Assembly: GCA_937871605.1 (NCBI GenBank)
Contig: CALMRM010000294.1
Coordinates: 1-35,708 of the forward strand
Source: an uncultured Terriglobus sp.
Lineage (GTDB): Bacteria > Acidobacteriota > Terriglobia > Terriglobales > Acidobacteriaceae
Direction of reading: 5' to 3'
Length of the DNA stretch: 35,708 nucleotides
Each line of letters opens with the position of its first letter. Position 1 is the stretch's first letter. Of this stretch, positions 16,138 to 35,708 are shown piece by piece. Both the position numbers and the translations under genes were made by a program. Below the pieces are notes generated by a model. That model had not been told where the DNA came from. It searched no databases and saw nothing but the letters and a program-made list of their open reading frames with translations.

Positions 16138-17757
16138 TTACAGCAGTTCTTCTGTCTGCACTGGAGCGACGCGGCGGCTCAGCCAGCCGTAGGTCAGGTT
16201 GACCGGGGCTGCCAGTGCGGCGGGGCATGACTCCACCAGCACGCGGAACCGTATCAGATCCTCCTGCTCAAACACGCGCAAGAGACCGGCTAGCAGCACA
16301 AAGGTCAGAACAGACAATGTGCCACCCAGAACAAACCCCACCAGCGGTGTGGTCCGCATGACACACAGGTAGCCCACCAGGGACGCAAACACACTGATGG
16401 CGACCACGCGGCCGAAAAACGACCAGGGCAGCCGCACGTGGTAGGTGCGGATGGCCATGGCCCACAGCGCACCCACACACAGCATCTGCGCAACGCCGCT
16501 GCCGATGGCAGCCCCCAGCGCGCCGTAGTGCGGAATCAGCACCACGGCGACCGCCACGTCGATGACGGACGCCACCAGCGTCGCTGAGATGAACAGCGAC
16601 TGGCGCTCCAGCGTCTCGAACATGGTCTGTACGGGCGTCAGAAAGGCCTTTGCGATGCAGAGCATCGGTGCAGCCATCGCAACCGTGACCGCACCCGCGT
16701 ACCGGTTGCCGTACATGGTTAACAGTGCAGCCCCGGCCAGCGATGTGGCAATGATGTGCAGCGGTATGGACGTGAGCCCCAGGTACCGTGCGGATGCGGC
16801 GGTGAGTGCGGGCAGCCGGGTGCGGTCGCGCCCAAACTGCGCAAACATGCTGGCCCCTGTGGCCGAAGCAAATACGGTCGGAAACACCAGGAGCCGCTCT
16901 GCAAGGCTGAAGGCGACCGAATAGAAACTGATCTGCCGGATGTCCGTGGAAAAGTGCTTGAGCAGCAACACCTCGGAACGGTCCCACACCACCAGGGTCA
17001 ACAGCATGCCGGTCAGGCTCTGCAGGGCAAAGCTCCGCATGCGCAGGACAAGATCCGCAGGCACATCGCGCCCGGTCTTTGGCCACGCGTTCATACGCCA
17101 CCACGTGGGTACAAAGCGCACCAGGAAGTCTGTCATCCGCATGGATAGCATGGCGGCAGCCACGCCAACCACGCCCCAATGCAGGACGATGGTAAGCAGC
17201 GTCGTGACAAAGAAGACGGCGGTAGACGCCACCGAGCCCGGCAGGTTGGCCGAAAGATCTTCCGTTGCAATGTTGGCAAAGGCTGAAACGCTGTTGACCA
17301 TGGACGGCCAGATACTGAGCACCAGCAGGATGCTGGCCAGCCGATACTCCGGCTGCACATCGCGCAGCACCCATAGCAGCGCGCCCCCCGTGGCCACGGT
17401 GGCGGTCGCACACTGTGCCAGCATGGTCATGCGGTACACATGGAGCGCTGCCGCACGGTCGCCGCTACCCAGAAACTCCGCCATGAATTTTCGCGTCGTG
17501 GACGGGATCCCGAGGGCGCCCAGCGAGCTGCAGATGTTCACGATCCACAGCACATAGACGATGTAGCCCATTTGCGTGGGGCCGATCACCCGTGCAATCA
17601 GGATCGACGAGATCAGCGAAGCGCCAAAGCTGATCAGGTTTTCCAGCGCAAACCATAGCGTGTTGCGAAGTATCGTTTTGGTGTTCAACGCTGAACCTGT
17701 CGCCGCTTCTCCCCTGCGGTGTGGCGCAATGCTGCAGAGAGCAGCCCTGCGCGGCAC
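16138..17757 (-). CDS. Polysaccharide flippase (Wzx/MATE-like oligosaccharide exporter); exact start uncertain
   Basis: Multiple TM helices; NTKTILRNTLWFALENLISFGASLISSILIARVIGPTQMGYIVYVLWIVNICSSLGALGIPSTTRKFMAEFLG. Confidence 0.85.
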   Translation of the reverse strand: MPRRAALCSIAPHRRGEAATGSALNTKTILRNTLWFALENLISFGASLISSILIARVIGPTQMGYIVYVLWIVNICSSLGALGIPSTTRKFMAEFLGSGDRAAALHVYRMTMLAQCATATVATGGALLWVLRDVQPEYRLASILLVLSIWPSMVNSVSAFANIATEDLSANLPGSVASTAVFFVTTLLTIVLHWGVVGVAAAMLSMRMTDFLVRFVPTWWRMNAWPKTGRDVPADLVLRMRSFALQSLTGMLLTLVVWDRSEVLLLKHFSTDIRQISFYSVAFSLAERLLVFPTVFASATGASMFAQFGRDRTRLPALTAASARYLGLTSIPLHIIATSLAGAALLTMYGNRYAGAVTVAMAAPMLCIAKAFLTPVQTMFETLERQSLFISATLVASVIDVAVAVVLIPHYGALGAAIGSGVAQMLCVGALWAMAIRTYHVRLPWSFFGRVVAISVFASLVGYLCVMRTTPLVGFVLGGTLSVLTFVLLAGLLRVFEQEDLIRFRVLVESCPAALAAPVNLTYGWLSRRVAPVQTEELL

Positions 17758-17787: not shown

Positions 17788-20082
17788 CTAGCCAAGCTTG
17801 TCGAGTTCCGCCTGCGCCTTTTTGCCAGTATCAGAGCCGTTGGCTGCTTCCACGGCCTTCTTCAGGCTGGCCTGCGCGGCGGCTTTGTTGCTGAGCTTCT
17901 CGTACACCAGGCCCATGTGGTAGTGAATGCTCGCATTGTTCGGCGAGGTCTTGACAGCCCCCTGTAAGAGATCCAGGGCAGAGCTATAGACGCCCTTTTT
18001 GTAGTACACCCAGGCCAGCGTGTCACTGGTATCGGGCGAGTTAGGCATGGCGCGCTGCGCGGCCTGGGCCAGCGTGAGCGCCACGTCGGTGTTGCCGCCA
18101 CTGTCCGCCATCAGGTAGGCCAGGTTGTTTTCGACGACGGGCTGTTCTGGCTGCAGCTGCAGCGACTTCTGGTAGTAGCCGATGGCCTTGCCCTGGTCTC
18201 CCGAGGCCTCTGCCAGCATGCCCAGGTACGACTGCGCTTGCGCATCGTTTGGGTGGCTGCCGGCCCACTTGGTCCACACCTCGTTGGGGCCGTTCAGGTC
18301 GTTGGTGGCCAAACCGGCTTCTGTATAAATGCGCATGGCGTTGAGGTTGTCGGGCTGCACCTGCATGGCCCGCTGCGCAGTGCCCAGCGCAGACTTCGCA
18401 TCATGCGCCGCCATCTGCACCTGTGCCAACTGCACCAGCGCCGGCACGCTGTTGGGGTTGCGCTGCACCACAGATTGCATACGGGCGACGGCAGCCGCGG
18501 GCTGGTTGCCCTGCAGGTCCATGCCCACCAGCACGCCCAGGGCAGCACTGTTGGGGGCTGCCGCCAGAGCCTGCTCCAGCAACGACTTCCCTTCGGCAGC
18601 TTTGCCCTGCTTCACGCGAATCTGACCCAGCGTGGTGAGTGCCTGCGTATTCTTGGGGTCCAATTTAAGGGCCTCTTGCAGGTCGGCAGCAGCCTGATCC
18701 AGGTGGTTATCGTTGGCTTCGGCGGTGCCAAGCCAGATGTGCGGCGCAGGCGCGTTGGGGTAGAGCTTGAGCATCTGCTCCGACACCTGGCGCAAACCGG
18801 CCTGGTCGCCGCGGCGCGCTGCGATCTCTGCCACGCCTGCTGCCGCGGCCATGTTGCCGGGCGCGCGCTGCAGGGCTGCACGGAAGTTGGTATTTGCCGT
18901 GTCCAGGTCGCCGCGGTCGCGCGACACGACCGCATACAGCAGTTTCAGCTCCACACTATCGGGGTTGTTCTGCACGCCCTTTTGCAGCAGGGTACTGGCC
19001 TCGTCCTGCTTGCCGTCGTGCAGCAGCAAGCCCGCCTTGACCTGGACAAACTGCGGCTCGGTTCCGTGTGCCTCCGCCTGCTTACTAACCACCTCATTGG
19101 CCTTGGCAAAGTTGCCGCGGATGGCCAACACACGGGCATACGCCATCTGCACGGGAAAGCTCTTGGGATGCTTGCTCGCCAGATCGGCATAGGCCGCCTC
19201 TGCCTTGTCGGCCTGGCCATTGTGCAGGTAAAAGCGCTCCAGCACGGTGGCGCCTTCGGGGTCGTCGGCAAAGTCCTCACTCGTCTGGCGCACAACGCCT
19301 TCGGCTGCCGGCAGGTTGTTCTCTGAGATGTACAGCGTGGCCAGTGCCACGCGGGCCTGCAGGTTCTTGGGCGCAACGCTGATGGCGGTCTTCAGCTGCG
19401 CTTCAGACCCGGCGTAGTCCTTCTGTACGGTGAGCAGCCCTGCCAGCAGCAGATGCGCCTGGACGTTTTTGTTATCCAACTGCACGGCTTTTTCCAGTTC
19501 CGCGTGCGCGCCCGGCAGGTCTTTGCCGCCGCTGCCCAGCAGGGCACCCAGGGTGGCGTGGAGGTCTGACCGGTTAGGAGCCACAGCGAGTGCCTTTTGC
19601 ATATCGGCGATCGCCTCGTCACGGTTGCCCTTTTCCGCGGCCACATTGGCCTGCATCGTCAGCGCATCCGGGTCGTTGGCCTTGAGCTTCAGCACGGCGT
19701 CGGCCTGCTCCGCGGCGCGGTCAGGCAAGCGGCCCGCCAGCAGGAGATTACCCAGCTCCACGCGCGCGGGCACGTTGGTTGGCTGCAGACGGACAGCAGT
19801 CGCCAGTTCGGGATACGCCTGCGCCACCATGCCCAGCTTGAGCAAGGCGCGGCCGAGTTCGTAGTGCGCCGGGGCAAAGTTCTTGTCGGCCTTGAGTGCG
19901 TTGTAGTACTGCAGGGAGGCTTCCTTGTACTTGCCGTCGTTGTAGTAGCGCAGGCCGCTCTCCAGGTATTTCTGCTTGCGCACATTTGGGTCACGGTTGC
20001 AGCCAGAGGTGAGCAGCACGGCAGAGAGGGCAACGGCGGATGCGGCAAGCTGTACGGGGCGGGACAGTCGGTTCAGCGGCAT
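17788..20082 (-). CDS. TPR-repeat lipoprotein, PrsT-like (PEP-CTERM system associated)
   Basis: Lipobox LLTSGCNRD; long array of TPRs (YLESGLRYYNDGKYKEASLQYYNALKADKNFAPAHYELGRALLKLG...); adjacent to epsI/exosortase. Confidence 0.85.
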   Translation of the reverse strand: MPLNRLSRPVQLAASAVALSAVLLTSGCNRDPNVRKQKYLESGLRYYNDGKYKEASLQYYNALKADKNFAPAHYELGRALLKLGMVAQAYPELATAVRLQPTNVPARVELGNLLLAGRLPDRAAEQADAVLKLKANDPDALTMQANVAAEKGNRDEAIADMQKALAVAPNRSDLHATLGALLGSGGKDLPGAHAELEKAVQLDNKNVQAHLLLAGLLTVQKDYAGSEAQLKTAISVAPKNLQARVALATLYISENNLPAAEGVVRQTSEDFADDPEGATVLERFYLHNGQADKAEAAYADLASKHPKSFPVQMAYARVLAIRGNFAKANEVVSKQAEAHGTEPQFVQVKAGLLLHDGKQDEASTLLQKGVQNNPDSVELKLLYAVVSRDRGDLDTANTNFRAALQRAPGNMAAAAGVAEIAARRGDQAGLRQVSEQMLKLYPNAPAPHIWLGTAEANDNHLDQAAADLQEALKLDPKNTQALTTLGQIRVKQGKAAEGKSLLEQALAAAPNSAALGVLVGMDLQGNQPAAAVARMQSVVQRNPNSVPALVQLAQVQMAAHDAKSALGTAQRAMQVQPDNLNAMRIYTEAGLATNDLNGPNEVWTKWAGSHPNDAQAQSYLGMLAEASGDQGKAIGYYQKSLQLQPEQPVVENNLAYLMADSGGNTDVALTLAQAAQRAMPNSPDTSDTLAWVYYKKGVYSSALDLLQGAVKTSPNNASIHYHMGLVYEKLSNKAAAQASLKKAVEAANGSDTGKKAQAELDKLG

Positions 20083-20159: not shown

Positions 20160-20864
20160 CTAATCCGGAATGTAGGCAGGCAGCATGGCGGCCACCTCCC
20201 CGGCAAAGGTCGTTGCGCGCGCGTGGGCGGCACCTTCGGGCTCGCCCGGTAACAGCGGCGTAATCACCCGGATCAGCGCGCCGTCTGTCCGGTTGTAGCG
20301 GATGGCATCCAGCAGCATGAAGAGCTTGGCCCGGTAATCGTTGGCAATGCTTCTGCCGTGTGCCCGGTACCAGTACAGCACTTCCTGCTTCTGCGTGCCA
20401 TCCGTGATGACGTACTCGCCCACCTGGTATTTGTGGCCGTCCGCGCCGGGCAGGAGAATGGTCTTCTCCGATTCAAAGGTCCAGCCGGCGCCTGGCAGGC
20501 AGTTCTGCGGCGAGTGAATGGACTGGCCGGTGCGCTGGGTAGGAAAGTAGCCAATGAAGAGGCTCACCGGAATCGCGGCATCCTGGGCCGCCGCCGTGCT
20601 GGCTGCGGTTGCGTTGGCAAACGCCGCACCCCTGTCCGCATTGCCCTGGCTGGAATAGAGGCGATTCAGGAAGCGGCCCTTGCCCAGCAGCTGCAGGGTC
20701 ACGTCTGGAATGGTGATATCCACGGCGCTGCGACGGTCGATCTGGTGTGGCAGCAGTTCCAGCGGCACACTGTTGGGCACGTCGTCTGTCGCCCGGCGCA
20801 GGTAAATCATGCTTGCCGTGGCCGCCATCATGCCTGCCACCAGCACAAAGCGGGGCAGGTTCAT
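20160..20864 (-). CDS. EpsI-family exosortase-associated protein
   Basis: Single N-terminal TM; SLFIGYFPTQRTGQSIHSPQNCLPGAGW, YWYRAHGRSIANDYRAKLFMLLDAI: typical EpsI motifs; 4-bp overlap with the exosortase gene. Confidence 0.88.
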   Translation of the reverse strand: MNLPRFVLVAGMMAATASMIYLRRATDDVPNSVPLELLPHQIDRRSAVDITIPDVTLQLLGKGRFLNRLYSSQGNADRGAAFANATAASTAAAQDAAIPVSLFIGYFPTQRTGQSIHSPQNCLPGAGWTFESEKTILLPGADGHKYQVGEYVITDGTQKQEVLYWYRAHGRSIANDYRAKLFMLLDAIRYNRTDGALIRVITPLLPGEPEGAAHARATTFAGEVAAMLPAYIPD

Positions 20865-21766
20865 GCGGCACGCTCCCGGGGGTGGGTGCCGAGCGCCATG
20901 GCTTTCTGCAAGAGGTACACCAACCCAAGCGAGAACAGAAACATCAGCCAGCCAGAAAACTCGTGAAAAAAGCCCATTGCCTTCTCCGGGTCCCAATACT
21001 GCACGCACAGCCCGGTACCCACAATGCGTAAGACGTTGGCTGCAACCGCAATGGGAATGCTGCCCAGCGCCAGCCAGGTACGGCGCCAGGTGGAGGGCTC
21101 CAAGAGGTAGCCGTAGATGATGGCCACGGTAAACAGGCTCATCAGCGACCGTATACCGCTACAGGCTTCCGCCACCTCCAGCTTCATCATGGGCAACTCG
21201 ATTACGTTGCCCTCGCGCAAGACAGGCACGTTGAACCAGGGCAGCATGGCACTGGCCAGCCGAGACGCAAACAGCTGGAGGGGAAACGTGATCTGGTTGA
21301 AGACAACCGCGGGAAACGGGATGGCGAGCAGCAACACCAGCAGCGGAAACTTGAGCACCCGCAGCATGGGCAAGCCAGCAAACGTCCAGACCAGGCCACC
21401 CAGCACCATGAGTCCGGAGATGCGCGCCAGAAACAGTTCCGCACCGTAAATGCCCGTGATGTAGGTGAGGAGGCCCAGCAACACCAGCAGGGTACCTGCC
21501 CAGCTTGGCTCTAGCGGTGTGTTGCGCACTGCCTCACGCTTCTCCCACACCACCCAGGCGCAAAAGAATGGGATCAGGAAGCCATGCGCGTAATCGGGCG
21601 TCACGTACCAGTCCAGCAAGAGCTTGCCGCACACGCGCAGGTAGAGCACGACCAGCAGAGCAGCAAGCACGGCCACAGCCCAGGCCGGCAGTGCTGTCAC
21701 CGAGGACCGTACGGCGGTCCGTCCCTGTGTTGCTGTTGCCGGCACGGTTGCAGTCTCCATGGGCAT
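20861..21766 (-). CDS. Exosortase (EpsH/Xrt family)
   Basis: PDYAHGFLIPFFCAWVVW; VAEACSGIRSLMSLF (catalytic Cys), IPIAVAANVLRI (Arg), FFHEFSGW (His); multi-TM. Confidence 0.95.
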   Translation of the reverse strand: MPMETATVPATATQGRTAVRSSVTALPAWAVAVLAALLVVLYLRVCGKLLLDWYVTPDYAHGFLIPFFCAWVVWEKREAVRNTPLEPSWAGTLLVLLGLLTYITGIYGAELFLARISGLMVLGGLVWTFAGLPMLRVLKFPLLVLLLAIPFPAVVFNQITFPLQLFASRLASAMLPWFNVPVLREGNVIELPMMKLEVAEACSGIRSLMSLFTVAIIYGYLLEPSTWRRTWLALGSIPIAVAANVLRIVGTGLCVQYWDPEKAMGFFHEFSGWLMFLFSLGLVYLLQKAMALGTHPRERAA

Positions 21767-21965: not shown

Positions 21966-22613
21966 ATGAAGCCTAAATTCGCTCTTCGTTTCGTTCCAGC
22001 ACTTCCCTTACTACTGGCTGGTGCCCAGGTGGGTTCCCATCCCATTTTGACTGCGGCGCCGCAGGGAGCACCCTCCCGTGCACAGGCCCCGGCTGCACCT
22101 GCTGGTAAGAATGGTGCGTCCCTGGCGCTTTCACCGGAGTATCGCATTGGCGCGTACGACACGCTACAGGTAACGGTATGGAAAGAGCAGCAACTCTCTG
22201 GTACCTTTCCCGTGCGCCCCGATGGCATGATTTCGCTGGTGTTGCTAGGCGATGTATCAGCGGCAAACTTAACCCCGATGAAGCTGGGCGAGAATATAAC
22301 GGAAGGTCTAAAAAAATACATCCAGGATCCCCTGGTGACCGTTACAGTAACAGCCGTTAACAGCCAGAAGATTTATGTTGTCGGCCAAGTGGGCAAAGTA
22401 GGTCCGGTGGATCTGGCGCCCGGGATGACGCCGCTGGAGGCGATTGCCTCTGCCGGCGGTCTGGCACCGTTCAGCTCCGGCAAAAACGCGTACATCCTGC
22501 GCGGAGAGCCGGGCAAGCAAAAGAAGATTCCGTTTGATTACAAGAAGGCCCTGAAAGGCAAGGAAGATCACGCCGTCCTGCTGGAAACCGGCGACACGAT
22601 CGTTATCCCGTGA
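21966..22613 (+). CDS. Polysaccharide biosynthesis/export (OPX, Wza-type) protein, short and without lipobox
   Basis: EYRIGAYDTLQVTVWKEQQLSGTFPVRPDGMISLVLLGDV...DPLVTVTVTAVNSQKIYVVGQVGKVGPVDLAPGMTPLEAIASAGG...LLETGDTIVIP. Confidence 0.9.
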   Translation: MKPKFALRFVPALPLLLAGAQVGSHPILTAAPQGAPSRAQAPAAPAGKNGASLALSPEYRIGAYDTLQVTVWKEQQLSGTFPVRPDGMISLVLLGDVSAANLTPMKLGENITEGLKKYIQDPLVTVTVTAVNSQKIYVVGQVGKVGPVDLAPGMTPLEAIASAGGLAPFSSGKNAYILRGEPGKQKKIPFDYKKALKGKEDHAVLLETGDTIVIP

Positions 22614-23938
22614 AAGCTCTGCATACATTTCCGCACGTTGTCTGGGGCGTCCTGCTGCTCCCATCGCTCCTGTCCGCGCAAAGCGCTCCAAGCGAGGCTG
22701 TGGGCGGCACGCCCAGCAGTTCTGGCTCCCTGGCCACGGCAGGCCAGTTGACGTATAGCCTGAGCGTCTCCGACTCCGTCGTTACCGGCTACAACGGGGT
22801 GAACGGCGTCAGCGACAGTGTCAACCTGGCGGGCAGCGCAGCGTATGTGTCCGCCAGCGAGCGCCACCCCACCAGCTTTGTGTACTCAGGTGGATACCTG
22901 TTCGGCAACAATGGCCAGCCATCCACCGCGTTCCAGAACTTTGGCGTGTCGCAGGTGTTTAGCACGCGTAAGTGGACGTTTGTGGTGAGTGACATCATCA
23001 GTTTTCTACCCTCGACACCGGAGTTCGGCCTGGCGGGCATCCCCGGCGTGGGCGACTACGGCAGCACGCCCGTTGCAACCACCCAGCAGCCAACAGGTGC
23101 GGCCCTCACCAACTATGGCCAGCGCATCAACAATCTCACCAGCGGGTCTGCCTCGTACCGGTTTGACCAGCGCAATGACATCGACCTGAACGGTGCCTAC
23201 AACTTCCAGCACTACCTGGATGGCAATGGCGGGTTCACCGGCACCAACGGCAACCTGCTGAGTAACACGGGCGGCATCAACAATGATCTGCTGACCGCCG
23301 GCGCGCAGTACAACCACCGCCTCTCTGGGGCCACCACGGTGGGCGCGATCTATAGCTACAGTCTTTCGAAGTATCCTTCCCCGTATTCGTTCAGCTTCAC
23401 CTCCAATGCCGTGCTTGGCTCCGTGCAGCACACCTTCAGTCCACGGCTGTCGTTCAATGCGTCTGCGGGTCCGCAGTGGACAAATGGATCCAACGCACTC
23501 CTGTTCCCCAGCCGCCTGAGCGTAACGGCACAGGTCAGTCTGCTGTACACAGCGGGCCGTAACAATTACACCCTGGGCTACAACCGCAGCACCAGCACAG
23601 GTTCGGGCGTGGTGCTGGGTGCGGAAGTCGACAGTCTCACCTTTTCCGGGCAGCGCCGATTTTCTCCGAGCTGGAACGGCGGGTTTTCCGCGGGGTATGC
23701 ACGCGTGAACAGCCTGGCCACCGCGCCCACGCTTGCAACCTCACTTGACTCGTTCACTACGGGTGTACAGGCCAGTCGCCGGATTGGGGAACACTTCTCA
23801 GCCTTTGGCAGTTACGCCTTGCAGTACCAGTCTGTCGGCCAACTAGCCGCAACCGATAATGCATTCCATGGGGTGGCGCACGTGGTCAGCGTGGGTGTGA
23901 CCTACGCGCCGCGGCCCATCCATCTTGGCCGGAGGTAG
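22610..23938 (+). CDS. Outer-membrane beta-barrel protein of the EPS locus (GTG start)
   Basis: Signal peptide, alternating amphipathic strands with aromatic girdle residues (YSLSVSDSVVTGYNG, ASYRFDQRNDIDLNGAYNFQHYL, HRLSGATTVGAIYSYSLSKYP); GTGA overlap with the OPX gene. Confidence 0.7.
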   Translation: MKALHTFPHVVWGVLLLPSLLSAQSAPSEAVGGTPSSSGSLATAGQLTYSLSVSDSVVTGYNGVNGVSDSVNLAGSAAYVSASERHPTSFVYSGGYLFGNNGQPSTAFQNFGVSQVFSTRKWTFVVSDIISFLPSTPEFGLAGIPGVGDYGSTPVATTQQPTGAALTNYGQRINNLTSGSASYRFDQRNDIDLNGAYNFQHYLDGNGGFTGTNGNLLSNTGGINNDLLTAGAQYNHRLSGATTVGAIYSYSLSKYPSPYSFSFTSNAVLGSVQHTFSPRLSFNASAGPQWTNGSNALLFPSRLSVTAQVSLLYTAGRNNYTLGYNRSTSTGSGVVLGAEVDSLTFSGQRRFSPSWNGGFSAGYARVNSLATAPTLATSLDSFTTGVQASRRIGEHFSAFGSYALQYQSVGQLAATDNAFHGVAHVVSVGVTYAPRPIHLGRR

Positions 23939-23945
23939 TCCCCCT

Positions 23946-25484
23946 GTGTTAGGCCACCGTATCCTGAAAGCCAGCGACTACGTCGCCATTCTGAAGCGCC
24001 GCGCGTTGTGGCTCATCATCCCCGCCATCCTGTGCGCCGCGGCTGCGCTGGCCACCAGCTTCTTCATTGCGCCGCGGTACGTGTCGCAGACACTGGTGCT
24101 GATTGAGCAGCAAAAGGTGTCCGAAGACTACGTCAAGCCGGTGATCGCGGCGGACCTCGATGCCCGCCTGGCATCCATGAAAGAGCAGATCCTCAGCCGT
24201 TCGCGCATTCAGCCCATCATCGAGAAGTTCAATCTCTATCCCGGGGCAAAGATGGACGAGCGCGTGGACGCAACGCGCAAAAACATCGACATCAAGCCGA
24301 TTCGGTCAGAGATCAGCCGCGCCAACGGGTTGCCAGGCTTTTTCATCCTGTTTACCGCGGGCGACCCACGCACGGCGCAGCAGGTGTGCAGCGAAATCAC
24401 CAGCCTGTTTGTGGGTGAGGATCTCCGCGCACGTGAGCAGAGTGCCCAGGGCACGACGGATTTTCTGGAGTCGCAACTGGCCGAGGCCAAAAGTGCGCTC
24501 GACACCCAGGACCAGAAGCTGGCTGACTTTCAAACCAAATACGTGGGCAAGCTGCCCGGCCAGCAGGCACCCAACATGGACATGCTGACCAGCCTGAACA
24601 CGCAGCTGCAGGCCTCCACCCAGCAGCTGGCACAGATGGAGCAGAACCGCGCCTACCAGCAGTCGCTGCTGTCCAGCCTGCAAGCCAACACGCGGGATGC
24701 TACGGGGGCACCCACGACGCCTGCGGCACCGGACGAACGGCAGGCTCAGCTTGTGGCATTGCAGGCGCAGGAGGCTGACCTCGCCTCACGCTACACACCC
24801 GATTATCCGGATGTGATTTCAGTCAAGCGGCAGATTGCCGACCTGCAACGGCAGATCAAGGCCAAACCCGCAGGCTCCACAGCAGCGGCCGGCACCAGCG
24901 GCAAACCCACGGAGTCCGCAGGCGTTCTGCAGTTGCGTGCCGCAATGCAGGCGTCCGATACCGGCATCAATGCAAAGCGTGCCGAAGTCGCGCAGATCCA
25001 AGGCAACGTAAGGCTGTACCAGGAGCGCATTTCGTCCTCACCGCTGGTTGAGGAGCAGTACAAGGCGCTGACCCGGGATCAGGACACCGTCAAGAAGAAC
25101 TACGACGACCTGCTCAGCAAGATGAACCAGAGCAAGATGGCCACCAGTCTGCAGCGTCGCCAGCAGGGTGAGCAGTTCAGCCTGATGGACGCAGCCAACC
25201 TGCCTGATTCGCCCTCGTATCCCAAGCGGCCGCTGTTTGGCGTGGCAGGAGCTTTTGTTGGGGTGCTGCTCGGTCTCCTTGCTGCGGCCTTGCTGGAGTA
25301 CCGGAATACTGCGATCCGCACAGAAGATGACGTGTACGCGTTTCTGCAGCTCAATACGCTGATTGCAATTGAACAGGTAGGCGACAGGCCGATTGAACCC
25401 GCACCCCGACCGGACGCCTCCACCGAAAGCAAACCGGGCAAACGGTTCCGCAAACCTGTGCCTGCCGGAGTCGAACACTCCTGA
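23946..25484 (+). CDS. Polysaccharide chain-length determinant (Wzz/GNVR domain) protein; GTG start preferred
   Basis: N-terminal YVAILKRRALWLIIPAILCAAAALATSFFIAPRYVSQTLVLIEQQKV, long coiled coil, SSPLVEEQYKALTRDQDTVKKNYDDLLSKMNQSKMA, C-terminal TM; GGAGG at 23931-23935. Confidence 0.88.
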   Translation: MLGHRILKASDYVAILKRRALWLIIPAILCAAAALATSFFIAPRYVSQTLVLIEQQKVSEDYVKPVIAADLDARLASMKEQILSRSRIQPIIEKFNLYPGAKMDERVDATRKNIDIKPIRSEISRANGLPGFFILFTAGDPRTAQQVCSEITSLFVGEDLRAREQSAQGTTDFLESQLAEAKSALDTQDQKLADFQTKYVGKLPGQQAPNMDMLTSLNTQLQASTQQLAQMEQNRAYQQSLLSSLQANTRDATGAPTTPAAPDERQAQLVALQAQEADLASRYTPDYPDVISVKRQIADLQRQIKAKPAGSTAAAGTSGKPTESAGVLQLRAAMQASDTGINAKRAEVAQIQGNVRLYQERISSSPLVEEQYKALTRDQDTVKKNYDDLLSKMNQSKMATSLQRRQQGEQFSLMDAANLPDSPSYPKRPLFGVAGAFVGVLLGLLAAALLEYRNTAIRTEDDVYAFLQLNTLIAIEQVGDRPIEPAPRPDASTESKPGKRFRKPVPAGVEHS

Positions 25485-25654: not shown

Positions 25655-26524
25655 ATGAACAGAACACATCAGGAACTGCTGCGAGCTGCACTGAACGACT
25701 CTGCCAGCACCAATGGCAATCCGACAAGCGCCACCCCCGGCCCACGCCTCACAGCAGACGCAGTGACTGAACCGGTGCCCGGCTACACCGGCACGATGCC
25801 TGGCGTGCCATGCCGCTGGAAAGCTTCCCTGATCGACCTGCCTTCACTGCAGCCGCGCACCGCCGTCGCAGAGCAGTTCCGCAGGTTGCGGTCTCGTCTG
25901 TTGGAGTACCGCGCCCAGCAGCCATTGAAGACCGTGCTGATGAGCAGTGCGAAGCCGCAGGAGGGCAAGAGCTTTGTGGCTGCGAACCTTGCGGTCGGAC
26001 TGAACCAGCATCGTGGCACACGTGTTCTTTTGATTGACGGTGACATGCGCCGCTATAGCCTGCAACGCTACCTGGGTACCACTTTCAAGCCTGGGCTTGC
26101 CGACTACCTGGCTGGCACACACAGTCCGGACGAGGTGATACAGCGTGCTGATGGGGAGACCCTGGACGAATTCCCAGGCTTGGCACACCTCTCGTTCATA
26201 CCCGGTGGTGGCCTGCGGGAACACGTGTCGGACCTGTCCGAAGATGCACACTTTGGCAATCTGATCCGGCATGTCAAGCCGCTCTTCGACTGGGTCGTGG
26301 TGGACTCGTCGCCTGTGACCCTGGTGTCGGACGCGGTCAACCTGGCACGGCATTGTGATGGCGTGCTGCTGGTGGTGCGCTCGGGGGTGACAAAGTACCC
26401 GGACGCACAGCGGGCGCAGGCAGAGCTGCAGGCCTCAAACCTGATTGGCGCGGTACTGAACGCGGTAGAAGACCGTCCCGCGCCCTCCTACTACGGCTAC
26501 GGCCCGGCGGGTGCTGACGCATGA
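25655..26524 (+). CDS. CpsD/CapB-family tyrosine-protein kinase (BY-kinase)
   Basis: VLMSSAKPQEGKSFVAANLAVGL (Walker A), VLLIDGDMRRYSLQRYLG (A'), FDWVVVDSSPV (Walker B), C-terminal SYYGYG tyrosine cluster. Confidence 0.88.
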   Translation: MNRTHQELLRAALNDSASTNGNPTSATPGPRLTADAVTEPVPGYTGTMPGVPCRWKASLIDLPSLQPRTAVAEQFRRLRSRLLEYRAQQPLKTVLMSSAKPQEGKSFVAANLAVGLNQHRGTRVLLIDGDMRRYSLQRYLGTTFKPGLADYLAGTHSPDEVIQRADGETLDEFPGLAHLSFIPGGGLREHVSDLSEDAHFGNLIRHVKPLFDWVVVDSSPVTLVSDAVNLARHCDGVLLVVRSGVTKYPDAQRAQAELQASNLIGAVLNAVEDRPAPSYYGYGPAGADA

Positions 26525-27891
26525 TCCGCCTGCTGAACGTCTACTATCCCACGCGAACCGTGTTTCTGCTGTTGTGCGAGGCGCTGATCATCAGCAGCTG
26601 CCTCTGCGCGGCCGTGTGGATGGTGATGGGCCGCGATGCCTACCTGGCGCTCTTCTACGAGTACGGCATGGCGAAGATTCTGGGGCTCACGGTCGGCACC
26701 ATGATGATCGCCTACTACTTCGACCTGTATGAGCCAGACCTCCTGTTTGACCGGCGCGAAATCTACTTCCGGATCGTGCTGGCGCTGGGCTGCGTCTGCC
26801 TGCTGGTCGCGGTTGTGGTGTACGTGTACCCCGAGTTCAGCATCACGCGCGAGGTGTTCCCTGTGGCCCTGCTGCTGCTGGGGCTGGTGCTCTGCGCGTG
26901 GAGGCGGTTCTACACGTGGGTGGCTGCACGCAGCATCTTTCGTGAGCGCGTGTGCGTACTGGGCAATGGGCCGCGTGCACACTTTATCGCCGAGACCATT
27001 ACCCGCCGTAAAGACCTGGGCATGGACGTCGTCAGCTGCGACTATGCCGTGGATGGCGTGCCGACGGGCGACGCGGCCAGTGCGGTACGCACGCTGGCTG
27101 CGCTGAAGCAGCCTGTCCATCACATTGTGATTGCCGTGGAGGATCGCCGGGGCGGCCTGCCGATGACGGATCTGCTGGCCTTGAAGCTGCGCGGCATCAC
27201 CGTGGAAGAAGATACCCAGCTGATGGAGCGGCTGAACGGCAAAATTCAGTTGGAGGGGCTGCAGCCCAGCACCTTCCTGTATGGCGAAGGCTTCCGCGTC
27301 AAGAGCTCGCAGCAGTTCACGCGGCGCGTGCTTTCCATGTTCGCTGCGGCTCTTGGCCTGCTGCTGTTTGCGCCGTTTTTTCCGATCGTCATGCTGCTGG
27401 TGCGCCTGACCTCGCCAGGCCCTATCTTTTTTAAGCAGGTTCGCGTGGGCGAGGGCGGCAAACCCTTCGACGTGTACAAGTTCCGCACCATGCGGCAGGA
27501 CGCCGAAGCGGCAGGCGCAAAGTGGGCCAGCAAGAACGACCCTCGCGTCACCAAGATCGGCCTGTTCATGCGCAAAACCCCCATCGACGAAGTGCCACAG
27601 CTGTGGAATGTTTTGCGCGGCGACATGGGATTTGTTGGGCCCAGGCCCGAACGGCCGGAGTTTGTGCCGTGGCTGTCGGAGCAGCTGCCCTTTTACGATC
27701 TGCGGCACATCATTCGGCCGGGCCTGACCGGGTGGGCGCAGGTGCGTTACGGGTACGGTGCAACGCTGGAAGAGGCGCGCGAGAAGCTGGCGTACGACCT
27801 GTACTACGTCAAGCACGCCTCGCTTGGGCTTGATCTGCTCATCATGTTCGAAACCATCAAGATCATCATCCGGCGCAAGGGCGCGCAATGA
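26521..27891 (+). CDS. Polyprenyl-phosphate sugar phosphotransferase (EPS-initiating sugar transferase, TIGR03013-like)
   Basis: C-terminal SPGPIFFKQVRVGEGGKPFDVYKFRTMRQDAEAAG...KIGLFMRKTPIDEVPQLWNVLRGDMGFVGPRPERPEF...RPGLTGWAQVRY. Confidence 0.93.
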   Translation: MIRLLNVYYPTRTVFLLLCEALIISSCLCAAVWMVMGRDAYLALFYEYGMAKILGLTVGTMMIAYYFDLYEPDLLFDRREIYFRIVLALGCVCLLVAVVVYVYPEFSITREVFPVALLLLGLVLCAWRRFYTWVAARSIFRERVCVLGNGPRAHFIAETITRRKDLGMDVVSCDYAVDGVPTGDAASAVRTLAALKQPVHHIVIAVEDRRGGLPMTDLLALKLRGITVEEDTQLMERLNGKIQLEGLQPSTFLYGEGFRVKSSQQFTRRVLSMFAAALGLLLFAPFFPIVMLLVRLTSPGPIFFKQVRVGEGGKPFDVYKFRTMRQDAEAAGAKWASKNDPRVTKIGLFMRKTPIDEVPQLWNVLRGDMGFVGPRPERPEFVPWLSEQLPFYDLRHIIRPGLTGWAQVRYGYGATLEEAREKLAYDLYYVKHASLGLDLLIMFETIKIIIRRKGAQ

Positions 27892-29093
27892 GTGCCGTCT
27901 GGCAGCCGCTGTTTGCCGGCTCCCTGCTGCTGGTGGTGTACACGTATGCCGGCTACCCCCTGATTGCGGCAGCTGCCGCGCGCCGAAATCCGCGGCTGTG
28001 GCGGCGTGGTGGCGGTCCGGTGCTGAGCGTCAGCGTTGTGATGCCCGTGCACAATGCAGCGGAGATTCTGCCTGCGAAGCTGCAACACCTCCTGACTCTC
28101 GATCCGGACATGGTGCGCGAGATCGTGGTCGTCTCGGATGGCTCGACGGACGGCACGGCAAACCTGCTGCACGCCTTTCCGGACCGCCGTGTACGGCCCA
28201 TTGCGCTGACGCAGCAGGTGGGCAAGGCAGAAGCGCTCAACCACGGCATGCGTACGGCCACTGGCGACGTGCTGCTGTTCGTCGATGTGCGGCCGCGGCT
28301 CCACGAGACCGCGCTGGAGCAGCTCATCAGTAACTTTGCCGACCCAGCCGTGGGCTGTGTGGCGGGCGAACTGCTGGTACAGACCAGTGCCCAGCACGAC
28401 GCCACGGGCAACGCCGTGGGTGGGGCCTACTGGCGCTACGAGCAGGGCATCCGCACAGCGGAAGCGCTCTGGGACTCGCCTGTGGGCGTCTATGGCGGCT
28501 TCTATGCGGTGCGTCGGACGCTGGCCACACCCTTTCCATCGGGGCTGATTCTGGACGATATGTTCCAGCCGCTCTCCGTCATACGGCAGGGCTATCGCAA
28601 CGTGCTGGACCGCGCCGCGGTGGTCGTGGATACCTGGCCCACCAGCAAGAAGGGTGAGTTCCAGCGGAAAGTCCGTACGCTGGCGGGCAACTTTCAACTG
28701 CTGCAGCAGGCACCCTGGCTCCTGTCGCGGGAAAACCGCGTGCGCTTCCAGCTCGTCTCGCACAAACTGCTGCGGCTGGTTGTGCCCTATGCGCTCGTGG
28801 CCATGGTGCTTTCCGCGGCTGCACTGGCACCGGGGCATCCTGGCTGGGGAGTGCTGGCCGCGCTGCAGGCCGCGTTTTGGCTCTTTGCGCTGCTGGCGTT
28901 GAAGGTGCGGATTCCCCTGCTGCACCGGGTGCTAGGCCCGGCCAGCGCTCTGCTGCTGCTGAATGCCGCGGCCGTGGCGGGGCTGTACCGCTTCCTGTTC
29001 ACCAGCGGTCCGCTTTGGAAGATGTGGCGACCCGCATCGAACGCCCTCGCGGAAAATCAGGCTGCGCTGTGGGGCGGCCCGGGGCGATCCTGA
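27888..29093 (+). CDS. Glycosyltransferase family 2
   Basis: LSVSVVMPVHNAAEILPAKLQHLLTL...EIVVVSDGSTDGTANLLHAF...VGKAEALNHGMRTATGDVLLFVD; C-terminal TM segments. Confidence 0.9.
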   Translation: MSAVWQPLFAGSLLLVVYTYAGYPLIAAAAARRNPRLWRRGGGPVLSVSVVMPVHNAAEILPAKLQHLLTLDPDMVREIVVVSDGSTDGTANLLHAFPDRRVRPIALTQQVGKAEALNHGMRTATGDVLLFVDVRPRLHETALEQLISNFADPAVGCVAGELLVQTSAQHDATGNAVGGAYWRYEQGIRTAEALWDSPVGVYGGFYAVRRTLATPFPSGLILDDMFQPLSVIRQGYRNVLDRAAVVVDTWPTSKKGEFQRKVRTLAGNFQLLQQAPWLLSRENRVRFQLVSHKLLRLVVPYALVAMVLSAAALAPGHPGWGVLAALQAAFWLFALLALKVRIPLLHRVLGPASALLLLNAAAVAGLYRFLFTSGPLWKMWRPASNALAENQAALWGGPGRS

Positions 29094-30181
29094 CTGTGCG
29101 CCGCAAACGCATCCTGCGAGGTGCCGCTGTAGAGCCGCAGGTACGCTTCGTGCATGGTACCCAGCGTAAAGTTCGCCTGGTACGCGGCGCGCGCCTGTTC
29201 GCCGCAGGCTTGGCGCAGAGCAAAGTCCGACGCCATGCGAACCATCGCCGCGGCCATGGCAGCGTCATCACCAACAGGCGTCAGCAAACCACCTTCGGAC
29301 AAGTGCAGCACTTCCTGCATGCCACCCACGTCTGTGACGATGCTGGGCAGGCCGATGGACATGCTCTGCAGCAGCGACATGGGCAGCCCCTCCGACACGG
29401 ACGACATTGCAAAGCAATCCGCTGCGCGGAACAGGCCTGCCGTGTCCAGCCATTGTCCGAAGAAGCGCACCTTGCCTGCAATGCCCAGCCGTTCCGCAGA
29501 CGCCTCGAGCTTCGCGCGTGCGGGACCATCGCCTACAATCCAGAGCCGCAGCTGCGGCACACGCTTCACGGCTTGCGCAAAGGCGCGCAGCATCGTCGGC
29601 ATATCTTTAATGTCGGCCACGCGGCCCACAAACAGCAGGACAAACGTGCCCGACTCCTTGTCGGCAGGTGGGGCTTCCCCCAGCGGAGCGGCACCGTTGT
29701 ACACCCGCACAATCTGCGCTGGATCGGCAAGCGGCGCACCGCGCAGGTTTGCGCACGTAATCTCGCAGATGCCGGCCACGCGATGCACAAAGGCACGCGC
29801 AATCACGCTGTACTTGACCTCGGCCGTGCGATCGTACGGCGGCGACACCAGGCTGTGCCGCGTGCTGATCACGCGCGCTCCTGCCAGCCGTGCACCCAGC
29901 GCGGCCTGCAGGGTGGGGGCCGGGTTATGGCAGTGCACCACGTCCGGCCGCATCTGCCGGAACAACGCGGCATACCGCAGCACCGTCTTCCACACGGGTG
30001 CTTCGCCCAGCACGTGGACGTGCAAGCCCTCCTCGCGCAGCACCTCGCCCAGCGGCCCCAGCGTGCTGTAGGCGCACACGGTCACATCATGCCCGGCGGC
30101 GCGTTGCATGCGGCCCAGCTGCGCTACCAGCATCTCAGCGCCACCCATCTCCATGCTGTACACCGCGTGCACAATCTTCAT
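29057..30181 (-). CDS. Glycosyltransferase family 4
   Basis: MKIVHAVYSMEMGGAEMLVAQLGR; FVLLFVGRVADIKDMPTMLRAFAQA; RLWIVGDGPARAKLEASAERLG; SVSEGLPMSLLQSMSIGLPSIVTDVGGMQEVL. Confidence 0.92.
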   Translation of the reverse strand: MKIVHAVYSMEMGGAEMLVAQLGRMQRAAGHDVTVCAYSTLGPLGEVLREEGLHVHVLGEAPVWKTVLRYAALFRQMRPDVVHCHNPAPTLQAALGARLAGARVISTRHSLVSPPYDRTAEVKYSVIARAFVHRVAGICEITCANLRGAPLADPAQIVRVYNGAAPLGEAPPADKESGTFVLLFVGRVADIKDMPTMLRAFAQAVKRVPQLRLWIVGDGPARAKLEASAERLGIAGKVRFFGQWLDTAGLFRAADCFAMSSVSEGLPMSLLQSMSIGLPSIVTDVGGMQEVLHLSEGGLLTPVGDDAAMAAAMVRMASDFALRQACGEQARAAYQANFTLGTMHEAYLRLYSGTSQDAFAAHSQDRPGPPHSAA

Positions 30182-30225
30182 CGCTCGTCACAGGGTACCG
30201 GAGAGAACTGTTCCGCCGATGAGCT

Positions 30226-31326
30226 GTGTCATGGGGTGCAGCAGTGAAGTTTCCCAAACACGCGGAGCAGTGGGTGCCGGGATACCTTGCCAGCCGTCTT
30301 GCACGTCTCCGAGCGACATCACGGCCCAGGCGGCTGTGGGTAGCCATCACAGACCACTACGAGCCCATGGGCGGCAACGTCTCACTGGCACAGGGCATGG
30401 CACGTGTGGAGCACTGGCTGCGCCGCTGGCCGGAGATCGCTGCCAGCGCGCCGCGCGATGCCGCAGGCAGTTCACCGAAATACACCTTCTTCTACCCACA
30501 GGAGGAGTATCAGCGCCAGGTGCTTACCGCTCTGGAATCCATGGTGCGAGCGGGCATCGCCGACGTCGACGTCCACATTCACCATGACAACGACACGAAC
30601 GCCGGTTTCCGCGGGAAGATGTCAGACTTCCTGCGGCGGCTACACGATGACCATGGATTTCTGCGGCATCACGCGGGGCGGCTCGTGTTTGGCTTCATCC
30701 ATGGCAACTGGGCGCTGGACAACGCGCGGCCAGACGGCAGGTTGTGCGGCGTGCAGGGCGAGTTGCAGGCGTTGCGAGATCTGGGCTGCTATGCCGACTT
30801 CACCATGCCTTCGCTGCCCAGCGCCACGCAGGGTGGCACCGTCAATCGCATCTTCTGGACGGATGGCGACCCGGCACAGCCCCGCGGCTTCGACAGGGGT
30901 ATCGATGCCAAACCTGGGACCGGTGTGCAGGGCAACGGCATCCTGATGGTGCCGGGGCCGCTGGGTCTGCGCTTTCGCGACCGGCTGCTGCCGCGTCTCG
31001 AAACCGGTGAGCTTGCCTCCTATGACGTGCCGACGCCCTACCGCGTCGAGCGCTGGATCGACCTGGCACCGCGCCTGGGCGAGGACATCTTTGTAAAGCT
31101 CTATGGCCATACTGCGCGAGAAGACAACGCCGGTGCGCTGCTGGGGGATCGGCCTGGCAGCGGCGCGTTTGAGCCCATGTTCCGCGCCATCCAAGCCGCC
31201 GCGGACCGGCGGGGGTTAGAGCTGCACTGGGCTACGGCGTACGAGCTGTTCTGCGCCATTGAGCGCGTCGCTGCACGTCCCGGCGAACCGCTGCTGCATG
31301 CCGCAGAGACTGGTATCTCTGCATGA
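30226..31326 (+). CDS. Uncharacterised His/Asp-rich protein of EPS locus, possibly polysaccharide-deacetylase-like
   Basis: LWVAITDHYEPMGG; ADVDVHIHHDNDTNAGFRGKM; RLVFGFIHGNWALDNARPDG; LGCYADFTMPSLPSATQ: metal-ligand-like motifs; no exact family recalled. Alternative start within MSWGAAVKFPK possible. Confidence 0.5.
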   Translation: MSWGAAVKFPKHAEQWVPGYLASRLARLRATSRPRRLWVAITDHYEPMGGNVSLAQGMARVEHWLRRWPEIAASAPRDAAGSSPKYTFFYPQEEYQRQVLTALESMVRAGIADVDVHIHHDNDTNAGFRGKMSDFLRRLHDDHGFLRHHAGRLVFGFIHGNWALDNARPDGRLCGVQGELQALRDLGCYADFTMPSLPSATQGGTVNRIFWTDGDPAQPRGFDRGIDAKPGTGVQGNGILMVPGPLGLRFRDRLLPRLETGELASYDVPTPYRVERWIDLAPRLGEDIFVKLYGHTAREDNAGALLGDRPGSGAFEPMFRAIQAAADRRGLELHWATAYELFCAIERVAARPGEPLLHAAETGISA

Positions 31327-34995: not shown

Positions 34996-35708
34996 CTACG
35001 CTTTTACGAAGCGGCGACGCAGGAAGCCCGCCGCGGACAGCACGCCAGTACCCAGCAGCAGGAACGAGCTCGGTTCAGGCGTAGGCGCAATCTGCGTTAC
35101 GGAGACACCGTCCAGCAGTGAGAAAGGAGGTTCGCCGTTGGGGGTGCCATTGGCTAGGAAGCTCAGCGTCTCGCTGGTACTGGTGGCGGTAAAGTTCAGC
35201 GTCTCATAGTTCCAGCCGGTAAAGCCGTGATTCTGGTTGGCCAGCATAGGGGTGGACTGGCTCTGCGTCGCTTTACCGTCGCCCAGGCTCACAGTGAATC
35301 CCTCGGTGGTCAGGCCATCGTACCCGTACTGCTGCGCACCCGCGTACCAGAACGAAACCTGAGTGTTCAGTCCGACGGTCAGCCCTGTCAGCACCTGCGA
35401 GATGGTCGATGGCTCGTACACGCCGTCCATGGCCAAGAAGTTGCCGCCGTCCGGGCTGGGTCCGATGCCATTGCTCTTGCCATTCTCAAGGCCCCAAAAA
35501 GAGACGGTGCCTGCGTTGCCATACGCGGTGGCGTACGCGCCGTTGCTGTTGGTGGTGCTGGTACCGCTAACGACAAAGTTATAACCGACGTTCTTACCAT
35601 CGTAAGTATTGTTAGTCCAACCGGCTAAGTGCTGTGAGTCGGCGGGGTTGTTATTAAATACGTAGTCCACCTGTGCCGAAACGCCCGAGTAGGTCGTCTG
35701 CTCAAAGC
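34996..35708 (-). CDS. PEP-CTERM protein, 5' end truncated by window edge
   Basis: Reading frame stays open past the listed GTG (35670) to the window end (...FEQTTYSGVSAQVDYVFNNNP); C-terminal TPEPSSFLLLGTGVLSAAGFLRRRFVKA sorting signal. Confidence 0.88.
   Translation of the reverse strand, partial: FEQTTYSGVSAQVDYVFNNNPADSQHLAGWTNNTYDGKNVGYNFVVSGTSTTNSNGAYATAYGNAGTVSFWGLENGKSNGIGPSPDGGNFLAMDGVYEPSTISQVLTGLTVGLNTQVSFWYAGAQQYGYDGLTTEGFTVSLGDGKATQSQSTPMLANQNHGFTGWNYETLNFTATSTSETLSFLANGTPNGEPPFSLLDGVSVTQIAPTPEPSSFLLLGTGVLSAAGFLRRRFVKA

Follow-up and report, generated by a model that had tools for sequence, protein, structure and literature searches.

The closest described counterpart of the locus analyzed here is EpsY/EpsX of Myxococcus xanthus, a composite OPX/beta-barrel translocon for which the main text of Schwabe et al. 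2022 (PMC9601211) presents genetic and pull-down evidence. EpsX and EpsY were shown there to bind and stabilize each other and to be needed for export, and VpsN/VpsM of Vibrio cholerae is listed as another such pair. An independent description in the main text of Saidi et al. 2022 (PMC9603273) concerns Class 3 OPX proteins with paired porins (WzaX/S/B with MXAN_7418/3226/1916) and reports homologues of the MXAN porins in myxobacteria only. The published criteria for a composite translocon are an OPX protein that does not exceed 280 aa and lacks a C-terminal helix, with a barrel of 16 or more strands and polysaccharide genes in its vicinity, and each of these features is present in a pair of overlapping genes that we examined in a 35,708-nucleotide stretch of DNA (the window) from an uncultured Terriglobus sp. 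We consider it very likely that the two products serve a Wzx-type exopolysaccharide pathway as its way out through the outer membrane, a two-part channel encoded in an exosortase/PEP-CTERM locus.

The OPX gene (21966-22613, + strand) encodes 215 residues followed by a TGA stop; the original prediction gave 216 aa by counting the stop, and the rest of that observation stood. Translation bore out the absence of cysteine, and with it of the Wza-type lipobox cysteine. The chain ends in LLETGDTIVIP, as had been read, and the AlphaFold2 model has no C-terminal helix: its last element is a beta strand (residues 211-214), and no helix occurs beyond residue 196. The model (mean pLDDT 82, first 56 residues of low confidence) contains D1 and D2 only, and a fold search against the PDB placed 9n9a, the Class-3 OPX protein WzaB of M. 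xanthus, at the top, with Wza entries next. Sequence models agree on the class, PF02563 (Poly_export) scoring 81 bits (cut-off 28) and SLBB_2 27.4 bits (cut-off 27). TIGR03027, the XrtA/PEP-CTERM export protein, matches over 158 residues at 137 bits, below its cut-off of 180, and by these scores the protein is a relative of that family and, under the model's own rule, not an equivalog; the EpsY model NF041843 also matches below its cut-off. The protein thus combines the PES motif of PF02563 and a length within 280 aa with the lack of a C-terminal membrane helix, as in composite translocons, and the marks of Class 1 (Wza-type) OPX proteins, a C-terminal amphipathic D4 helix and a lipobox cysteine, are both absent from it. 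On inspection its N terminus resembles a Sec/SPI signal peptide. An in-frame upstream ATG (21885) was set aside as the start because translation from 21966 opens with a signal-peptide-like stretch that recurs in the nearest named relative, an OPX protein of another uncultured Terriglobus (L067) with 91% identity.

The second gene (22610-23938, + strand) begins, as originally proposed, inside the stop of the first, its GTG (22610-22612) overlapping the TGA (22611-22613) in a GTGA read directly from the sequence at 22610-22613. There is no clear Shine-Dalgarno sequence upstream of this GTG, and 4-base overlaps of the same two genes recur in related genera; translation of the barrel gene is likely coupled to that of the OPX gene. 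The open reading frame does encode the 442 aa expected of it, and the original prediction had been staked on a closed barrel, which the AlphaFold2 model supplied (mean pLDDT 80.6, pTM 0.79, from 72 aligned sequences): it is an 18-stranded outer-membrane barrel of porin topology, with strands at residues 45-59, 67-81, 88-100, 106-118, 122-134, 171-184, 189-202, 225-237, 242-255, 261-277, 280-293, 302-315, 318-329, 338-350, 355-368, 378-391, 396-409 and 421-432. Turns of 2 to 6 residues alternate with mostly longer loops of up to 36 residues, and the protein would have the usual outer-membrane topology with both termini in the periplasm, the sides being our assignment on the model. Foldseek returned outer-membrane barrels throughout, including Occ porins and the polysaccharide porins AlgE (for alginate; 3rbh, TM 0.45) and PgaA (4y25). 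The TM-scores to known porins are modest, 0.45 at most, and therefore support the fold class of the barrel and no specific function. Searches with Pfam and NCBIfam gave no match for the barrel protein, to any EpsX-family model or otherwise, and a sequence search against PDB chains gave nothing useful. With 18 modeled strands in the gene next to the OPX gene, the proposed exit porin lies inside the published limits of at least 16 strands within five genes.

Genes for polysaccharide synthesis and export surround the pair. Next to the barrel gene is a polysaccharide co-polymerase of the Wzz/XrtA chain-length type (23946-25484, +; PF02706; TIGR03007 at 219 bits, cut-off 279), which probably starts at a GTG (23946) that on inspection is preceded by CGGAGG. 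It is followed by the partner tyrosine autokinase (25655-26524, +; TIGR01007, 111 bits, over cut-off) and by an initiating phosphoglycosyl transferase of the XrtA/PEP-CTERM type (26521-27891, +; TIGR03013, 438 bits, over cut-off). On the minus strand lie an XrtA/XrtD-like exosortase (20861-21766; PF09721 at 255 bits, TIGR02602 at 199 bits), EpsI/DUF3485 (20160-20864, start by inspection; PF11984 at 161 bits, TIGR02914 over cut-off), the TPR protein PrsT of the XrtA/PEP-CTERM system (17788-20082; TIGR02917, 314 bits, over cut-off) and a Wzx-type flippase with about 10 hydrophobic segments (16138-17757; PF01943 and PF13440 at cut-off). Beyond the phosphoglycosyl transferase gene come glycosyltransferase genes and a gene for a PEP-CTERM protein (34996-35670, −; PF07589 and TIGR02595 over cut-off). 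One glycosyltransferase gene (29057-30181, −) replaces an open reading frame on the opposite strand (28877-30247, +) that is probably spurious, and among the glycosyltransferases a 366-aa gene (30226-31326, +) has no Pfam or NCBIfam match. The exosortase and EpsI reading frames (20160-21766, −) were suspected of being one frameshifted gene from the 148-base overlap of their longest forms; this was rejected because EpsI starts at a separate ATG that shares an ATGA with the stop codon of the exosortase gene, a 4-base coupling in the same style as that of the OPX and barrel genes. Exosortase, EpsI, PrsT and PEP-CTERM protein, with models over their cut-offs, thus occur together with exopolysaccharide genes, the combination that characterizes the locus type described by Haft et al. 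2006 (PMC1569441). The proposed composite translocon likewise has polysaccharide genes nearby, in the adjacent Wzz-type co-polymerase and the flippase.

From these components a path for the polymer can be proposed. The OPX protein, with D1 and D2 only, would reach the periplasm through Sec, probably losing its signal peptide to signal peptidase I, and assemble there into a ring above the co-polymerase, whose gene lies downstream. Since it has neither a lipid nor a D4 helix, it would be incapable of crossing the outer membrane itself, and the 18-stranded barrel from the overlapping gene would substitute for the helix pore of Wza, with the D2 ring docking to the periplasmic face of the barrel. 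The polymer would then pass from the co-polymerase through the OPX ring and the barrel to the outside. We infer docking, octamer or ring formation, and transport by the pair; the barrel would also anchor the unlipidated ring.

The pore might instead be a full-length Wza-type OPX protein encoded elsewhere in the genome, leaving the short OPX protein as a periplasmic adaptor only. The genome does contain four further PF02563 loci, and in two of their proteins (C242 and C247, 328 and 345 aa) the C-terminal segment might be a D4 helix; of the remaining two, one encodes a long KpsD-like protein and the other is truncated at the edge of its contig. When we looked for a full-length lipidated Wza serving this locus, a finding on which the original prediction would have yielded, none of the four proved to lie here, but the two with possible C-terminal helices qualify that result. 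The C242 and C247 genes are on other contigs, the latter with its own adjoining co-polymerase/kinase gene, whereas the short OPX gene is accompanied by its own barrel gene in almost every related locus. We regard a Wza pore from elsewhere as highly improbable.

Co-occurrence across genomes, which had been named as a check on the two-part channel, was examined in two samples. Eighty loci were fetched from public genomes with an OPX alignment as bait, and one ended inside the OPX gene. A barrel homologue lies directly downstream of OPX in 75 of the 79 readable loci, in a set that leans toward coupled OPX genes because the bait alignment was built from them; the two genes overlap by 4 bases at the closest and stand about 108 bases apart at the widest, and the barrel from the window aligns with 71 homologues located downstream of OPX genes. 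Among the four exceptions, L146 carries another kind of barrel-like gene in that place, weakly matching TIGR03016 and EpsL, and in the other three the co-polymerase directly follows OPX. When OPX and barrel profiles were searched separately in a sample of 150 Terriglobia genomes, the barrel family was found in 100 of them and adjoined every OPX gene scoring at least 245 bits (61/61), compared with 11 of 40 more distant ones (200-245 bits). The pairing is, as judged from gene order, more than chance.

Ten of the 29 distant OPX genes without an adjoining barrel were read individually. In six of them (five in the genus of the window, plus L154) the place of the barrel is taken by a very divergent gene coding for about 430-450 aa, again overlapping by 4 bases. 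The five from the genus represent a second OPX type, ending in GDTVVIP, whose gene shares 4 bases with a highly divergent barrel-like one (about 428 aa) that no library model matches (L147:3444-4730, L148:2920-4212, L149:3555-4838, L150:3636-4922, L151:2822-4105). Profile comparison of this genus-type barrel with the first family aligns 362 columns at a probability of 96%, which suggests distant kinship. The other four, all from family f6, have the co-polymerase directly after OPX. In the f6 genomes read, the D1D2-like OPX gene is located away from a lone barrel relative that has no polysaccharide gene around it (L157:5189-6511, L158:5227-6636, L159:5133-6479, L160:5023-6369). Two acidobacterial-type OPX-barrel loci came from records titled Verrucomicrobia (L076, contig CAJCIP010000120.1) and Bacillota (L092, JAIMBE010000007.1), representing either mislabeled metagenome bins or gene transfer.

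The same gene order bears on whether the barrel could be an accessory outer-membrane protein, anchoring or organizing polymer in the manner of Wzi or releasing PEP-CTERM cargo, while the polymer exits by another route. The cargo of an exosortase locus must also pass the outer membrane, the name of TIGR03016 says no more than that it is an outer-membrane protein associated with PEP-CTERM systems and gives it no export role, and Wzi, as the main text of Saidi et al. 2022 (PMC9603273) has it, is likewise 18-stranded and comes from polysaccharide loci. However, an OPX protein without a membrane-spanning part needs some pore, the direct partner of the barrel gene in the 75 paired loci is OPX and not the exosortase, and barrels adjoin OPX also where the fetched flank shows no exosortase match. 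An accessory role is accordingly improbable in our estimate, and we retain the barrel as the likely exit porin.

Several genomes have two or three OPX-barrel pairs, and these allow inheritance to be examined within genomes. OPX and barrel distances correlate (Spearman 0.66, 49 pairs), and when barrels were exchanged at random only between paralogous pairs within a genome, so as to hold species history fixed, that value was reached in 1 of 500 trials (mean 0.44). OPX and barrel are, by these distances, inherited as matched units, even as paralogues in one genome. Because operon linkage explains matched inheritance equally well, this supports physical contact without proving it. The originally predicted arrangement of a periplasmic OPX ring and a dedicated beta-barrel porin thus gains support from structural prediction, near-perfect synteny and matched paralogous pairs, and the co-polymerase, kinase, phosphoglycosyl transferase and flippase genes near the pair speak for it as well. 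Counting against it are the f6 OPX proteins without an adjoining barrel, the modest porin TM-scores, and the fact that no Wzy polymerase was identified within the window.

A lipobox-like sequence was found by pattern and inspection in 1 of 74 OPX proteins (L068); the other 73 have a signal-peptide-like start, usually with an A-Q junction resembling a cleavage site ahead of a linker rich in Ala and Pro. According to the main text of Schwabe et al. 2022 (PMC9601211), the D1D2 OPX proteins of myxobacteria are predicted lipoproteins with a single exception, and that of Saidi et al. 2022 (PMC9603273) gives about 30% of Class 3 OPX proteins as Sec/SPI; the lack of lipidation here is therefore a clade-wide habit and not a novelty.

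TIGR03016 (XrtA/PEP-CTERM outer membrane protein) and EpsL (TIGR03014, XrtB) come, like the barrel, from exosortase exopolysaccharide loci. TIGR03016 (cut-off 90.85 bits) matches neither the barrel in the window nor any other protein of the genome, although 19 of the 72 sequences in the barrel family give weak matches to it at E ≤ 0.01, the best at 1e-9. We speculate, at somewhat less than an even chance, that loci of the exosortase type use a composite translocon in which the lipid anchor of the OPX ring has been lost clade-wide and nothing but its dedicated TIGR03016-like barrel keeps the ring at the outer membrane, so that TIGR03016 and EpsL, which so far have no assigned mechanism, would be polymer exit porins. 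A literature search found no papers on TIGR03016 or on acidobacterial exosortase loci, and neither this barrel family nor composite translocons tied to exosortase/PEP-CTERM systems appeared in the literature searched. The main texts of PMC9601211 and PMC9603273 name no Acidobacteria and, as far as searched, no exosortases, and their supplementary tables may list such genomes.

The analysis proposes a function for an unannotated barrel family and extends the idea of the composite translocon to exosortase/PEP-CTERM loci. Terriglobia, in which the family occurs, are abundant soil bacteria. An OPX protein without lipid or helix also offers a natural case for asking whether a barrel is enough to keep the ring at the outer membrane. 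Compared with Wza of E. coli, the OPX protein shares D1 and D2 (phmmer 1.6e-19 to 2j58) but has no counterpart of D3, of the D4 pore helix or of the lipidated cysteine. With the Class 3 proteins WzaX/S/B it shares the Poly_export-SLBB architecture and the absence of Wza_C, and the WzaB crystal structure is its best fold match; homologues of the MXAN porins are reported from myxobacteria alone, whereas the barrel is acidobacterial. The resemblance to EpsY/EpsX comprises a short D1D2 OPX protein without D4, a neighboring 18-stranded barrel like a polysaccharide porin, and a Wzx-type locus. The differences are that myxobacterial OPX proteins are nearly all lipoproteins while this one and its relatives are not, that the barrel sequence is recognized by no library model, and that the locus has an exosortase. 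The two-part export design has been known since its publication in 2022 (PMC9601211, PMC9603273), and the pair in the window is a widespread acidobacterial version of it.
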